Below are positions 7,419 to 51,374 of a DNA stretch of 64,000 bases, piece after piece (position 1 is the first letter of the stretch; every line of letters begins with the position of its first letter). The position numbers were made by a program, and so were the translations under genes. The stretch spans positions 65,695 to 129,694 of the forward strand of contig NZ_JAUTXR010000173.1 in the NCBI RefSeq assembly GCF_030658505.1. The letters are read 5' to 3'. Below the pieces are notes generated by a model. That model was given only the letters and a program-made list of their open reading frames with translations, had not been told where the DNA came from and searched no databases. The stretch comes from Stenotrophomonas raiganjensis (SeqCode). GTDB taxonomy: Bacteria > Pseudomonadota > Gammaproteobacteria > Xanthomonadales > Xanthomonadaceae.

Positions 7419-7960
7419 TCGTGAGGCAGGCCCGCCTTGCCCCTGCCAGCGGCCGCTTCGCGCGGTCGCTGGCCTTGCTCGGCATGCTGGCCAGTTCCAG
7501 CGCGCTGGCGCAGGCACCGGCGTGCAAGCTGCTGACCGACGAACACGGGTTGTGGCCGCTGCCCAACTGCGAAGTGGTCGATCATCGGCCGAAGATCAGC
7601 GCCGGCACGTTGAAAGACCTGAACTTTGATGACCACGGCCTGGCCGTGGTGTATGCCGACCAGGGCTTCCACTACGTCGACCGCAAGGGCCGCAGCCTGC
7701 CGGTGCTGACCTGGGACAACGGCCCGGAAACGCCGCAGGAAGGCCTGCTGCGCGCCCGCGTAGGCAACCGCGTGGCCTACTTCGATCTGAAGTTCCGCCA
7801 GGTTGTGCCGGGCACGTTCGATTTCGGCTGGCCGTTCCAGGATGGCGTGGCCGAGGTCTGCAATGGCTGCCGTCGTGGTACGCCGGATGCCGATGGCCAC
7901 ACGCCGATGGAAGGCGGAGAGTGGTTCCGGATCGACCGCGCGGGCCGCCGGGTGAAGTAG
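7415..7960 (+). CDS. Secreted WG-repeat-like protein of unknown function
   Basis: A 181-residue protein starting at a GTG that overlaps the alkaline phosphatase stop codon (GTGA). A second in-frame GTG at 7421 is possible. A hydrophobic signal sequence (LALLGMLASSSALAQA) is followed by short beta-type repeats such as GLAVVYADQGFHYVDRKGR, RVGNRVAYFDLKFRQV and GVAEVCNGC, resembling WG (tryptophan-glycine) repeats. Four cysteines may form disulphides. No enzymatic motif is visible. The overlap suggests a partner or accessory role with the phosphatase, which is inference. Confidence 0.75.
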   Translation: MIVRQARLAPASGRFARSLALLGMLASSSALAQAPACKLLTDEHGLWPLPNCEVVDHRPKISAGTLKDLNFDDHGLAVVYADQGFHYVDRKGRSLPVLTWDNGPETPQEGLLRARVGNRVAYFDLKFRQVVPGTFDFGWPFQDGVAEVCNGCRRGTPDADGHTPMEGGEWFRIDRAGRRVK

Positions 7961-7969
7961 GGTTTTTCG

Positions 7970-8141
7970 GCAGGGCTGCGCCCTGCACCTGCTACAAGCC
8001 TGAGCAACCCCAACCGCCACTGGGGCTCGGTTTTTTTGTGTGTGGGGGGGGGGGGTGTGGGTGGGCAGGACACGCCGTAAACCCTTCCATGGGGGCTCGA
8101 TGGCGCCATCCATGGCGCCAACGGTCCTGCCCACCCACACC
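7970..8141 (-). repeat. Composite repeat module, copy A (reverse orientation)
   Basis: Read on the minus strand it has perfect 18-bp arms (8124-8141 with 8054-8071) around a 52-bp core with an inner hairpin (GGCGCCATGGATGGCGCC). A G12/T7-containing spacer and the 17-bp hairpin at 7970-7986 (GCAGGGC, TGC, GCCCTGC) follow. The core matches copies B and C over CATGGATG and TTTACGGCG, but the arm sequence differs. It faces copy B head to head. Confidence 0.8.
8002..8037 (+). terminator. Possible terminator of the phosphatase/WG operon
   Basis: GAGC and CCCC on the left pair with GGGGCTC on the right across a bulge and a 10-nt loop, followed by CGG and seven T residues at 8031-8037. It lies about 40 bp past the WG gene stop and inside repeat copy A. 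The bulge makes this moderate only. Confidence 0.45.
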
Positions 8142-8178
8142 GCCCCACCCCGGACAGATTTCCGGTGACGGCTGGACC

Positions 8179-8197
8179 ATCCGCGCTTTGCGTGGAT
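8179..8197. repeat. Degenerate SMAG-like hairpin
   Basis: ATCCGCGC pairs with GCGTGGAT (one wobble) across TTT. It resembles the stem of the GTAG-headed element at 47238-47260 but has no GTAG head. Confidence 0.45.
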
Positions 8198-8228
8198 CAG
8201 ATCTGTGAGAGATCGAATTGAATCCGGT

Positions 8229-8263
8229 GTCAGATTCGTTTTCCGCAGGAAAACGGATCTGAC
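8229..8263. repeat. GTCAGATC-type inverted repeat, copy 1
   Basis: Two 16-bp arms with one mismatch surround a GCA loop. The arms begin GTCAGATTCG and end CGGATCTGAC. The same architecture (16-bp arms, 3-nt loop, one mismatch) recurs at 51328-51362 at the end of the RnfB-like gene. Confidence 0.75.
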
Positions 8264-8277
8264 CCCAAGAGCAAGTC

Positions 8278-8300
8278 CGACAGTTCGCAGGAAACTGTCG
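8278..8300. repeat. Short hairpin preceding copy B
   Basis: CGACAGTT pairs perfectly with AACTGTCG across seven bases. The right half (CTGTCGAAG) is conserved in front of copy C at 47322-47330, where the left half has diverged. Confidence 0.5.
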
Positions 8301-8302
8301 AA

Positions 8303-8404
8303 GGCGGGGTGGGTCCGGTTGCGGGGGCGTGAGCGCCATGGATGGCGCGACCGAGCCTACATGGACGTATTTACGGCGTCCCCCGCAACCGGACCCACCC
8401 CGCC
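8303..8404 (+). repeat. Long inverted repeat of composite module, copy B
   Basis: Perfect 25-bp arms (8303-8327 with 8380-8404) enclose a 52-bp core. The core carries an inner hairpin, GCGCCAT-GG-ATGGCGC (8333-8348), and the sequence ACATGGACGTATTTACGGCG. It is followed by a hexanucleotide repeat and the 17-bp hairpin, the same order as copy C at 47331-47501. Confidence 0.85.
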
Positions 8405-8420
8405 AACCCTCAGGGAACCA

Positions 8421-8478
<58 letters not shown>

Positions 8479-8493
8479 TGGATCGTAGCGGGT

Positions 8494-8510
8494 GCAGGGC
8501 GCAGCCCTGC
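8494..8510. repeat. 17-bp hairpin element upstream of tilS
   Basis: GCAGGGC-GCA-GCCCTGC, a perfect 7-bp stem. The same hairpin occurs at 47485-47501 and, with loop TGC, at 7970-7986. It covers the place where a -35 box would lie relative to the TATACT at 8521. Confidence 0.8.
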
Positions 8511-8520
8511 CGAGCAACCC

Positions 8521-8526
8521 TATACT
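8521..8526 (+). promoter_or_regulatory. Candidate -10 box of tilS
   Basis: TATACT lies 7 bp before the GTG start of tilS, so transcription could begin at or next to the start codon and give a leaderless message. No TTGACA-like -35 is present at the right spacing; the hairpin at 8494-8510 takes that place. Confidence 0.4.
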
Positions 8527-8533
8527 TGCCGCC

Positions 8534-9820
8534 GTGACTGCCTTCCCTGCCCTCGTTCCGCTGGATGCGCCGCTGCTGGTGGGCTACAGCGGTGGTGTCG
8601 ACTCGACCGTGCTGCTGCACTGGCTGTGGCGCTGCGCACGGGCCTCCGGCACGGCGCTGCGTGCGGTGCATGTGCACCATGGCCTGCAAGCCGATGCGGA
8701 CGACTGGGTACTGCATTGCCAGCAGCAATGCGCGGCACTGGGCATCGAACTGGCTGTGCATCGCGTGCAGGTCAACAAGCGCGCGGGCCTCGGCCTTGAA
8801 GGCGCGGCGCGGCAGGCGCGACGTGCCGCGTTCGCAGCCGAACTGCGCGATGGCGAGACACTGGCACTGGCGCAGCACCAGGACGACCAGGCCGAGACTT
8901 TCCTGCTGCGGGCCCTGCGTGGTTCCGGCGTCGATGGCCTTGCAGCGATGTCCGCACGCAGCCGTCTTGGCGAACATCACCTGTGGCGACCGCTGCTGTC
9001 GACGCCGCGCACCGCGCTACTCGACTACGCCCAGCAGCACGCGCTGCAATGGATCGAAGACCCCAGCAACGCCGAAGACCACGCTGATCGCAACTTCCTG
9101 CGCCTGCAGGTGTTGCCGTTGCTGCGCCAGCGCTGGCCGCACGCGGCGGCGGCATTGGCCGGCAGCGCGACGCACTGCCGGCAGACCCGCGAACTGCTGG
9201 ACGAGGAAGACGCCGAGCTGATCGCGCACCTGGAAGTGGCACCGCGGGTGCTGTCACTGGAACTGCTGCGCCAGGTGTCGCCAGGGCGCGCGGCACGCGT
9301 GCTGCGCGCCTGGGTGATCGGCCACGGCGCAGCACCGATGCCGGCCACGGTGTTGCAGCAGGCGCTGGAGGAGCTGTTGCCGGCCGACACCGACCGCCAG
9401 GCGCGTGTGCGCTGGCAGGATCACGTGATCCAGCAATGGCGTGACCATGCCTACCTGCTGCCGGCCCGGCTGCCCTCGCTGCCCCTCGACTGGCAGGCCG
9501 CCTGGGATGGCCGTGCACCGCTGCCATTGCCCGACGGTGGCCAGCTGAGCCTGCTTGGCGCCAGCGCTTTCGAACAGCCACTGCAGGTCCGTGCACGCGT
9601 GGGCGGTGAGCGCATCCTGCTGCCGGGTCGCCAGCATTCGCACGCGCTGAAGGACTGCCTGCAACGTGAGCGCCTTGCCCCATGGCGGCGCGCGCAGCTG
9701 CCGTTGATCTTCGATGGCCCGCAGTTGCTGGCCGCCGCCGACGTGGTCATCGCCGCGCCCTTGCAGGCCTGGTTGCAGGCGAACGAGGCACAGCTGCGGT
9801 GGCGTCCCGGCGGCTGGTGA
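8534..9820 (+). CDS. tilS: tRNA(Ile)-lysidine synthetase TilS
   Basis: A 428-residue cytosolic enzyme that uses ATP to convert C34 of the CAU-anticodon tRNA-Ile to lysidine, so it reads AUA. The PP-loop motif SGGVDS is at residues 19-24. The N-type ATP-pyrophosphatase domain follows (VHHGLQADADDW, QHQDDQAETFLLRALRGSG, RPLL, WIEDPSNAEDHADRN). The TilS substrate-binding and C-terminal domains come next, ending LRWRPGGW. The GTG at 8534 is preferred over one at 8492, which lies inside the repeat hairpin. xseB and ispA follow on the same strand. Confidence 0.93.
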   Translation: MTAFPALVPLDAPLLVGYSGGVDSTVLLHWLWRCARASGTALRAVHVHHGLQADADDWVLHCQQQCAALGIELAVHRVQVNKRAGLGLEGAARQARRAAFAAELRDGETLALAQHQDDQAETFLLRALRGSGVDGLAAMSARSRLGEHHLWRPLLSTPRTALLDYAQQHALQWIEDPSNAEDHADRNFLRLQVLPLLRQRWPHAAAALAGSATHCRQTRELLDEEDAELIAHLEVAPRVLSLELLRQVSPGRAARVLRAWVIGHGAAPMPATVLQQALEELLPADTDRQARVRWQDHVIQQWRDHAYLLPARLPSLPLDWQAAWDGRAPLPLPDGGQLSLLGASAFEQPLQVRARVGGERILLPGRQHSHALKDCLQRERLAPWRRAQLPLIFDGPQLLAAADVVIAAPLQAWLQANEAQLRWRPGGW

Positions 9821-47280: not shown

Positions 47281-47330
47281 CCACCAAGAGCAAGCCGTTC
47301 CATTCCAGCAGATCGCAGGACTCTGTCGAA

Positions 47331-47432
47331 GGTGGGGTGGGTCCGGTTGCGGGGGCGTGAGCCGCATGGATGCGGCGACCGAGCTTACAGGGACGTACTT
47401 GCAGCGGCCCCCGCAACCGGACCCACCCCGCC
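47331..47432 (+). repeat. Long inverted repeat of composite module, copy C
   Basis: 26-bp arms (47331-47356 with 47407-47432, one T/C difference) surround a 50-bp core. The inner hairpin is GCCGCAT-GG-ATGCGGC. Compared with copy B (GCGCCAT-GG-ATGGCGC) the stem bases differ on both sides in a way that keeps pairing. The core keeps CGACCGAGC and GGACGTA. Confidence 0.85.
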
Positions 47433-47474: not shown

Positions 47475-47484
47475 ATCTGCGGGT

Positions 47485-47501
47485 GCAGGGCGCAGCCCTG
47501 C
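47485..47501. repeat. 17-bp hairpin element upstream of the DUF2147 gene
   Basis: GCAGGGC-GCA-GCCCTGC, identical to 8494-8510 and flanked on the left by the same GGGT. Confidence 0.8.
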
Positions 47502-50908: not shown

Positions 50909-51361
50909 ATGAGCCTGATCCCGCCCCTGACCGAACGCCTCGACCGCCTGCTGCCGCAGACCCAATGCGGGCAATGCGGCTACGACGGATGCCGCCCGTA
51001 TGCGCAGGCGATGGCGCGTGGCGAGGCGGGCGTCGACCACTGCCCGCCCGGTGGCGACGCCGGTGCACGCGCGCTGGCCCAGGTGTTGGGCGTACCGGCA
51101 ATTCCCTTCGATCGTTCGCGCGGCGCGCACAAGGCGCCGCAGGTGGCGTTGATCGTGGAAGCCGACTGCATCGGCTGCACCAAGTGCATCCAGGCCTGCC
51201 CGGTGGACGCCATCGTCGGCGGTGCCAAGTACATGCACACGGTGATCGCCGGTCTGTGCACCGGCTGCGAGCTGTGCATTCCACCGTGCCCGGTGGACTG
51301 CATCGAGTTGGTGCCCCTGCAGCCGGAGTCAGATCCCTTTTCCAACGGAAATGGGATCTGA
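50909..51361 (+). CDS. RnfB/RsxB-like iron-sulphur protein
   Basis: A 150-residue ferredoxin-like protein. It has an N-terminal Fe-S cluster motif of RnfB ([16 protein letters not shown] ... CPPGG) and two 4Fe-4S motifs ([12 protein letters not shown] and [12 protein letters not shown]). RnfB is the electron-carrying subunit of the Rnf/Rsx complex, but the usual N-terminal membrane helix is missing and no other rnf gene is nearby, so this is a soluble orphan form. The last residues ([10 protein letters not shown]) and the stop are encoded by the GTCAGATC-type inverted repeat at 51328-51362. Confidence 0.87.
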
Positions 51362-51362
51362 C
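51328..51362. repeat. GTCAGATC-type inverted repeat, copy 2, at the 3' end of the RnfB-like gene
   Basis: 16-bp arms with one mismatch and an AAC loop: GTCAGATCCC on the left, GGGATCTGAC on the right. It spans the last ten codons and the TGA of the RnfB-like gene and ends 13 bp before the ridA stop. It is followed by CCCC, as is copy 1 at 8229-8263. It may also end transcription of both convergent genes. Confidence 0.8.
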
Positions 51363-51374
51363 CCCGTACAAGGG

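Follow-up and report, generated by a model that had tools for sequence, protein, structure and literature searches.

The repeated sequence present at three places in the window (the whole stretch of 64,000 nucleotides that was analysed) belongs to an element family that is real, wide and known in part. The element consists of a long outer stem, free in sequence, that encloses two hairpins, each with a C-G-closed hexaloop A-N-GGA-N. We regard it as probable that it is a YPAL-type mobile repeat which functions as an RNA, transcribed as the GGA strand and carrying a putative two-site dock for CsrA/RsmA.

The three copies (A, B and C, see Table 1) were checked letter by letter. Their places and their arms of 18, 25 and 26 bp, perfect or near-perfect, are as given in a preliminary description of this DNA, and the arms of copy A, which lies on the minus strand, are indeed unlike those of B and C in sequence. 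Copies A and B share the hairpin 1 sequence GCGCC-ATGGAT-GGCGC, for which C has GCCGC-ATGGAT-GCGGC, in agreement with the earlier observation that this inner hairpin changes on both sides together between B and C. The stem of hairpin 2 co-varies as well (GCC..GGC in B versus GCT..AGC in C). The single-stranded core had been described as conserved. This did not hold for TTTACGGCG, which varies and is CTTGCAGCG in copy C, because it is partly the 3' arm of the co-varying hairpin 2. Folding compared with shuffled sequence gave z values of -10.3 (B), -9.1 (C) and -5.4 (A, read along its GGA strand). When the window was scanned with loose patterns, allowing 2-3 mismatches, there were 12 matches where 11.4 were expected and 40 where shuffles gave 48.2; since these are no more than in shuffled sequence, no copy was added to A, B and C.

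Table 1. Parts of the element copies in the window.
Feature	Position	Strand	Details	Basis
Copy B	8303..8404	+ (GGA strand)	25-bp outer stem around hairpins 1 and 2; arms 8303-8327 / 8380-8404, 25/25 complementary	letter-by-letter arm check, folding
Copy B core	8323-8384	+		R1 covariance-model match
Copy B hairpin 1	8333..8348	+	GCGCC-ATGGAT-GGCGC; loop 8338-8343, CANGGANG site 1	alignment, covariation
Copy B hairpin 2	8355..8377	+	GCC-TAC-ATGGAC-GTA-TTTAC-GGC; loop 8361-8366, CANGGANG site 2	alignment, covariation
Unit B 5' flank	8276..8302	+	small inverted repeat GACAGTT..AACTGTC; end TGTCGAA as in many copies of this genome	
Unit B 3' terminal hairpin	8490..8510	+	GCAGGGC-GCA-GCCCTGC with leading GGGT, 3' of GTTGCT-rich microsatellite	
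Copy A	8054..8141	-	18-bp outer stem; arms 8054-8071 / 8124-8141, 18/18 complementary; hairpin 1 8103-8118, hairpin 2 8074-8096	letter-by-letter arm check, folding, R1 match
Copy A loops		-	read on the - strand: ATGGAT (hairpin 1), ATGGAA (hairpin 2)	
Unit A 3' terminal hairpin	7970..7989	-	inverted copy of the hairpin at 8490	
Head-to-head composite	7970..8510	.	unit A (-) and unit B (+)	pair orientation, own genome
Copy C	47331..47432	+	26-pair outer stem; arms 47331-47356 / 47407-47432, 25 Watson-Crick pairs and one G·U; hairpin 1 47361-47376, hairpin 2 47383-47405	letter-by-letter arm check
Copy C loops		+	ATGGAT (hairpin 1), AGGGAC (hairpin 2)	
Unit C 5' flank	47304..47330	+	ends CTGTCGAA	
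Unit C 3' terminal hairpin	47481..47501	+	with leading GGGT	

From its 5' flank to its 3' hairpin, unit B measures about 235 nt (8276-8510), including a microsatellite of variable length. The motif TGTC.RR was matched by 79 of the 105 5' flanks in this genome. The CTGTTG/GTTGCT microsatellite of unit B (8422-8478) lies between the big hairpin and the 3' hairpin, and variable runs similar to it trail many copies (79/105 flanks fit a loose motif). The 3' terminal hairpins (7970-7989, 8490-8510 and 47481-47501) occur in this genome in the versions GCAGGGC..GCCCTGC and GCCGGGC..GCCCGGC, which looks like covariation of their own. A second imperfect palindromic repeat, TCAGAT..TTTTCC..GGAAA..GGATCTGACCCC, is located in the spacer between A and B (8219-8266) and, alone, at 51318-51365; stretches resembling this repeat sit upstream of some other element copies.

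A covariance model (R1) of the 62-nt core was built; apart from five pairs, the outer stem lies outside this model. The search of genomes with such a model, proposed in the preliminary description, yielded a large family with covarying pairs far above slid and shuffled controls. When 15 distinct cores of this genome were submitted to RNAalifold, the two inner hairpins were found unprompted, with double changes at 9 of 19 pairs. Among 64 distinct rows, 98.2% of the pair cells were standard and 14 of the 16 core pairs had changes on both sides. The covariation score of these 64 rows was 0.669, in an alignment fitted to the structure, which favours the score, versus 0.06-0.11 for slid partners and 0.17 for shuffles. 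Counting G·U, the outer stem comprises 29 pairs in the median of 91 loci, and its sequence differs from lineage to lineage.

The mispairs in the outer stems were then counted on the GGA strand of 65 elements from outside Stenotrophomonas, each less than 80% identical to the rest. These were what remained of 187 rows after removal of 7 in excluded loci (L074 and the Stenotrophomonas loci L090-L092 and L137), 72 whose core deviated from 62 nt in length, 17 second matches in a locus already used, 14 with fewer than 12 Watson-Crick pairs in 20, 11 that were at least 80% identical to a kept element and 1 that ran off an end. G·U occurred 76 times versus 11 times for A·C (p 4e-13), and G·A 37 times versus once for C·U; counted by element, the asymmetry was 32 to 1. 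A larger test on 76 loci, some of them alike, with symmetric stem boundaries, gave 90 G·U to 16 A·C, 44 G·A to 5 C·U and, counted by element, 37 to 3. In 95 copies of the genome itself, G·U outnumbered A·C by 66 to 13 cells, or 28 to 11 distinct events. Within the core G·U is rare across lineages (5 of 1,013 cells), so the asymmetry between the strands rests on the outer stem. Both-strand DNA, or repair of the palindrome, would equalise G·U and A·C; the asymmetry therefore means that one strand is selected to fold alone, and selection on a strand-specific fold of the GGA strand is well supported. Given the loops, RNA fits best and is most likely the selected molecule. The preliminary description had offered selection on a folded RNA or on a cruciform. 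Its folded molecule is supported, by covariation far above the controls and by the strand-asymmetric mispairs; a DNA cruciform is not supported as the selected form, because with both strands in the structure neither could show a preference for G·U above A·C or for G·A above C·U. The overall interpretation was thus supported in part, and it had overlooked hairpin 2, both CANGGANG loops and the head-to-head arrangement in which copies pair up.

The loops were surveyed in 55 genomes outside the genus, namely those of the 75 positives for which the best-scoring copy was fetched; the set includes a few close relatives (L068/L074; L114-L117), and the choice of the best copy favours likeness to R1. 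In hairpin 1, C was found in 55/55, A in 54/55, G in 54/55, G in 55/55, A in 53 of 54 lettered and the closing G in 55/55, with free letters at the first (T30 G22 A3) and second N position (T41 C10 A2 G2). This freedom is out of sample, because the N positions of hairpin 1 were invariant in the copies on which R1 was trained. The corresponding numbers for hairpin 2 were C 51/55, A 55/55, G 55/55, G 55/55, A 51 of 51 lettered and closing G 51/55, with G26 T21 A5 C3 and T27 C20 A3 G1 at the N positions. The exceptions were L080, L081, L082 and L083 for hairpin 1 and L114-L117 for hairpin 2. Both loops were intact in 94 of 101 copies of the genome itself, and in 23/23, 7/7, 8/10 and 34/49 copies of genomes G435, G482, G621 and G249, respectively. 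The two GGA motifs occupy core positions 18-20 and 41-43, with 20 nt between them and 23 nt from start to start.

In many of these bacteria, metabolism, motility and biofilm are under the control of CsrA/RsmA, and the targets listed for it are mainly 5' leaders and a small number of sRNAs; the structure 2jpp we take to be RsmE bound to a CsrA-type hairpin. The feature of a CsrA/RsmA site, ANGGA in a C-G-closed hexaloop, is present in both hairpins of the element. According to the accessible text of PMC7652899, the SELEX consensus for CsrA is RUACARGGAUGU, with ACA and GGA always kept, and the selected ligands were mostly hexaloops with AC/GU pairing. According to the same text, one CsrA dimer can bridge two sites if 10-63 nt separate them, best if more than 18 nt do, and the two GGA sites of the element fall inside this range. 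Most SELEX hairpins had four pairs or fewer (PMC7652899, accessible text), whereas hairpin 1 has at least five. An A-U pair below the closing pair (AC...GU) would require A in column 37 of hairpin 2, which is A in 38 and C in 17 of the 55 genomes; the equivalent column 14 of hairpin 1 is mostly G (39/55). Of 65 matches found by the model, 5 had the perfect 12-mer consensus; among 122 in loci that had been selected with a pattern in which the CANGGANG of hairpin 2 is preset, 11 did. The host encodes one CsrA-family protein, which shares 46 of 52 residues with a CsrA chain of solved structure and carries R44, the residue altered in binding tests cited in the accessible part of PMC7652899. Judged by its letters, the case for a two-site CsrA/RsmA dock in the element is strong, and binding is predicted from it. 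Conservation of the hexaloops, taken alone, is also compatible with a different protein or with folded single-stranded DNA.

The preliminary description knew of no named family for the element. The Yersinia repeat YPAL/RU-2 has the same core, and Rfam family RF02770 (Ysr224) models part of it, on the opposite strand. The 168-nt RU-2 sequence of Y. pestis printed in Table 1b of PMC2759123 contains the core with its two GGA-loop hairpins and has the CGAGC linker, TATTTACGGCG and a palindromic outer stem in common with the element. YPAL is present in many intergenic copies and is reported as mobile; many intergenic copies, and filled and empty sites, were found here too. The outer stem and flanks of YPAL are of other sequence, and the Stenotrophomonas unit is distinguished by its own 5' flank, microsatellite, 3' hairpin and head-to-head pairs; unit B, with its variable microsatellite, measures about 235 nt, and the YPAL unit about 168 bp. 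In the accessible portions of the YPAL papers, the repeat is described from Yersinia and Erwinia carotovora, three copies are tabulated for E. coli and no link to CsrA is made. They also give target-site duplications of 3-26 bp for the mobile YPAL/RU-2 (PMC2229807), an RNAz value of 1.00 (PMC2267715) and counts of 2-144 across Yersinia species (PMC2847712). A literature search, with most subscription papers outside its reach, found no report on YPAL and CsrA together and none with the exact letters of the element.

RF02770 scored 126.5 bits in Yersinia and 73.3 bits in Pectobacterium, against a cut-off of 70 and on the opposite strand; its scores on copies in the window were 28.9 and 24.4 bits, below the gathering cut-off of 70. 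The family represents a truncated piece with a structure other than that of the element, and its matches in L166 and L182 suggest that it models the YPAL repeat incompletely and on the opposite strand. If Ysr224, listed among the most prevalent sRNAs in the accessible text of PMC9029176, was modelled on this repeat, its many copies would be explained. Rfam, searched with a relaxed threshold in 7950-8540, gave 36 matches below cut-off, mostly chance matches to long hairpins (miRNA), and only Ysr224 was meaningful.

Several further systems were compared. The CsrB/CsrC and RsmX/Y/Z RNAs carry several GGA hairpin-loop sites per RNA, as does the element; those are single sRNA genes, whereas the element is a repeat scattered over the genome and has a long outer stem. 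RF00018 and RF00166 gave only weak matches in the genome of the window and none above cut-off; the RF00166 control was below cut-off in all control genomes. One weak CsrB-like match (G000:C113:4328-4551; 21.3 bits, E 0.001, cut-off 71) is possibly a diverged Csr sRNA of the genus, or chance. SMAG repeats, which are GTAG-tagged REPs, are likewise abundant intergenic palindromes in Stenotrophomonas. REPs are 20-40 bp long and GTAG- or CGTC-tagged, as far as the accessible text of PMC3733652 goes; the element has about 102 nt and the stem foot GGCGGGG / GGTGTGG, which rules out a GTAG/CGTC-tagged REP. RsmU of Xanthomonas, a related genus, is a 3'-end derived RNA that binds RsmA. It is described, in the accessible part of PMC7694677, as an RNA of 117 nt that is highly conserved in Xanthomonas and present in no other bacteria. 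An intrinsic terminator was rejected, as the 3' arm is followed not by a U-run, but by AACCCTCAGG (B), ATCCCACGG (C) or a C-run and then ACACACA (A), and an integron attC site was rejected on inspection of the sequence.

The genome of the window contains 125 R1 matches at E below 1e-9 and at least 150 in all; at least 150 were also scored in Methylotuvimicrobium buryatense 5G. When matches less than 450 bp apart were joined, 150 of those in the genome of the window fell into 109 groups (68 singles, 41 pairs), and among the matches listed all 41 pairs are in the (-,+) arrangement, with the GGA strands pointing apart; copies A and B form one such pair. Elsewhere close neighbours were (-,+) in 17, (+,-) in 2 and tandem in 3 cases in locus set A4, and (-,+) and tandem in 4 cases each in set A5. 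Set A3 had 3 (-,+) cases, two of them in the genus of the window, and 2 tandem ones (L080 and L104, also within A5). In this draft assembly, 24 of the 150 listed matches have their start less than 600 bp from the beginning of a contig; from this crowding, the assembly seems to break at or near element copies.

The spread of the element is wide but patchy. R1 matches were obtained in 44 of the 274 Gammaproteobacteria genomes sampled (39/221 genera) and in 37 of 398 genomes of a phylum sample, all 37 being the genome itself or of the same genus or class. Within the genus, G356, G561 and G652 have the element and G165 is without it; the same-family genomes G012 and G543 gave no R1 match. Named genomes among the listed matches to an exact pattern include Marinobacter, Rheinheimera, Shewanella, Xanthomonas and Stenotrophomonas, as well as Halopseudomonas, Methylomonas, Pectobacterium and Yersinia. 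The R1 scan of loci fetched by pattern covered 94 of the 120 listed and recovered the Yersinia similis copy with 54.8 bits. In phages and plasmids, a search with copy B at E 1e-3 found nothing. Part of the Yersinia form is present in 5 of 5,426 E. coli genomes, as one partial copy each; the two examined (L334 and L335) are located beside an alcohol dehydrogenase gene, amid IS elements.

Matching sites were compared with the related genome G561, in which 19 of 93 groups had both flanks within about 1.45 of its 4.4 Mb; 17 of 24 element copies aligned well enough (score at least 90). Changes affected 3 of 202 sites of the loop core and 18 of 68 N sites (p 2e-9 for core versus N), as well as 66 of 304 other single-stranded and 146 of 1,120 stem sites. 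In two of the three loop-core changes the consensus letter was on the side of the relative. The stems showed 44 double Watson-Crick swaps versus 13 single breaks (Watson-Crick to another mismatch). Several of these copies have more in common with paralogues than with the copy at the matching site; gene conversion or replacement therefore has a share in this pattern of conservation. Empty counterparts, by gain or by loss, were found for L014, L251 and L282 in G165 and for L252 in G561; the flanks at filled and empty sites were too diverged to show the boundaries of the element, where a target-site duplication of 3-26 bp was sought. From site to site, species are thus polymorphic for the element, which we read as mobile. 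In G561, the sites corresponding to L025 and L251 (in L307 and L306, respectively) contain hairpin-rich modules of about 80-90 bp inside hairpin loops, and a closely similar loop-inserted module is common to both.

Such mobility is also what a second explanation would predict, in which the GGA strand of a mobile DNA element folds as single-stranded DNA during replication or transfer, for a transposase or recombinase, and the likeness to CsrA sites is coincidental. G·T and G·A are well-tolerated mispairs in DNA too, so that the mispair counts are compatible with it, as are the presence and absence at matching sites, the lack of bias toward the sense strand of neighbouring genes (see below) and, in the accessible text of PMC2229807, the reported mobility and target-site duplications of YPAL. 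It leaves unexplained why, in two separate hairpins, it is just the two N positions of the CsrA consensus that vary, with C, A, GGA and the closing G constant, and why the spacing of these hairpins lies within the bridging range of CsrA. We consider this explanation unlikely.

Gene context was examined with a dicodon gene finder, with approximate gene starts and genes not extendable into elements. As the gene finder was unable to show a location inside a gene, coding frames were tested apart, in the genome of the window only: none of 130 elements had a frame that looked coding on both sides (stop-free frames). For the orientation of neighbours, 44 of the 109 groups were dropped (neighbour missing at a contig end, or stretch not fetched) and 65 kept; in other genomes 5 cases of G621 and 2 of G249 were without a neighbour. 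Divergent regions were rare (2/42 singles, 4/23 pairs). This location outside genes, away from divergent promoter regions, would suit an RNA hairpin at mRNA 3' ends that stabilises the transcript, is cut by RNase III or blocks transcription, with loops for another protein or for the fold only. Such a hairpin would be expected to show a 3'-UTR-type strand bias, which was not borne out: singles flanked by same-strand genes were sense in 12 and antisense in 13 cases, and no sense bias of the GGA strand was seen in M. buryatense (G249; 10 versus 11) or G435 (5 versus 9). Copies A, B and C are without a U-run after the 3' arm, and the identity of the loops is constrained beyond the needs of a fold. 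This explanation is rated as improbable. Hardly credible at all are neutral palindromes that DNA repair or template switching keeps free of mismatches; palindrome correction does occur as a DNA process and would suit outer stems that are nearly perfect and free in sequence, but it is strand-symmetric, cannot yield 76 G·U to 11 A·C or 37 G·A to 1 C·U, does not conserve loops and is refuted as the sole explanation.

CsrA was found in 40 of 44 carriers of the element, compared with 235 of the 274 genomes overall; among good genomes the numbers were 36/37 and 176/199, a co-occurrence that was not significant (p 0.14). One carrier, G196, a draft that is 98% complete, has nine matches, with intact loops in the best copy, and no CsrA above cut-off; the three other carriers without CsrA are incomplete drafts (67-88%). 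The CsrA reading thus has against it the lack of a sense bias, the CsrA-less G196, the opposite-strand Ysr224 and the 34/49 intact loop pairs of G249.

In the reading that we prefer, that of an RNA with a CsrA/RsmA dock, the long outer stem would present the two C-G-closed A-N-G-G-A-N hexaloop hairpins 23 nt apart, and one CsrA/RsmA dimer would be expected to dock on both loops at once. Many copies inside transcripts might then form a diffuse sponge for CsrA or mark 3' ends, a role that we infer, and selection would act on the RNA form of the element. More tentatively, the element may represent a class-wide family of mobile RNA elements in the Gammaproteobacteria, known until now from descriptions of local repeats alone, YPAL among them, each bringing a two-site CsrA/RsmA dock, of which the more than 100 copies in some genomes could set the level of free regulator or exploit it to persist and spread, with turnover by insertion and conversion while the dock is kept.

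If this is true, each of the five genomes counted would hold 15 to more than 120 further two-site targets, in repeats that are usually unannotated. YPAL, Ysr224 and the repeats of Stenotrophomonas, Xanthomonas, Marinobacter, Shewanella, Methylotuvimicrobium and others would be united in one family, and it would be explained why a prevalent Rfam sRNA is multi-copy and has a model of the opposite strand. It would also exemplify an encounter between a mobile element and a global regulator.
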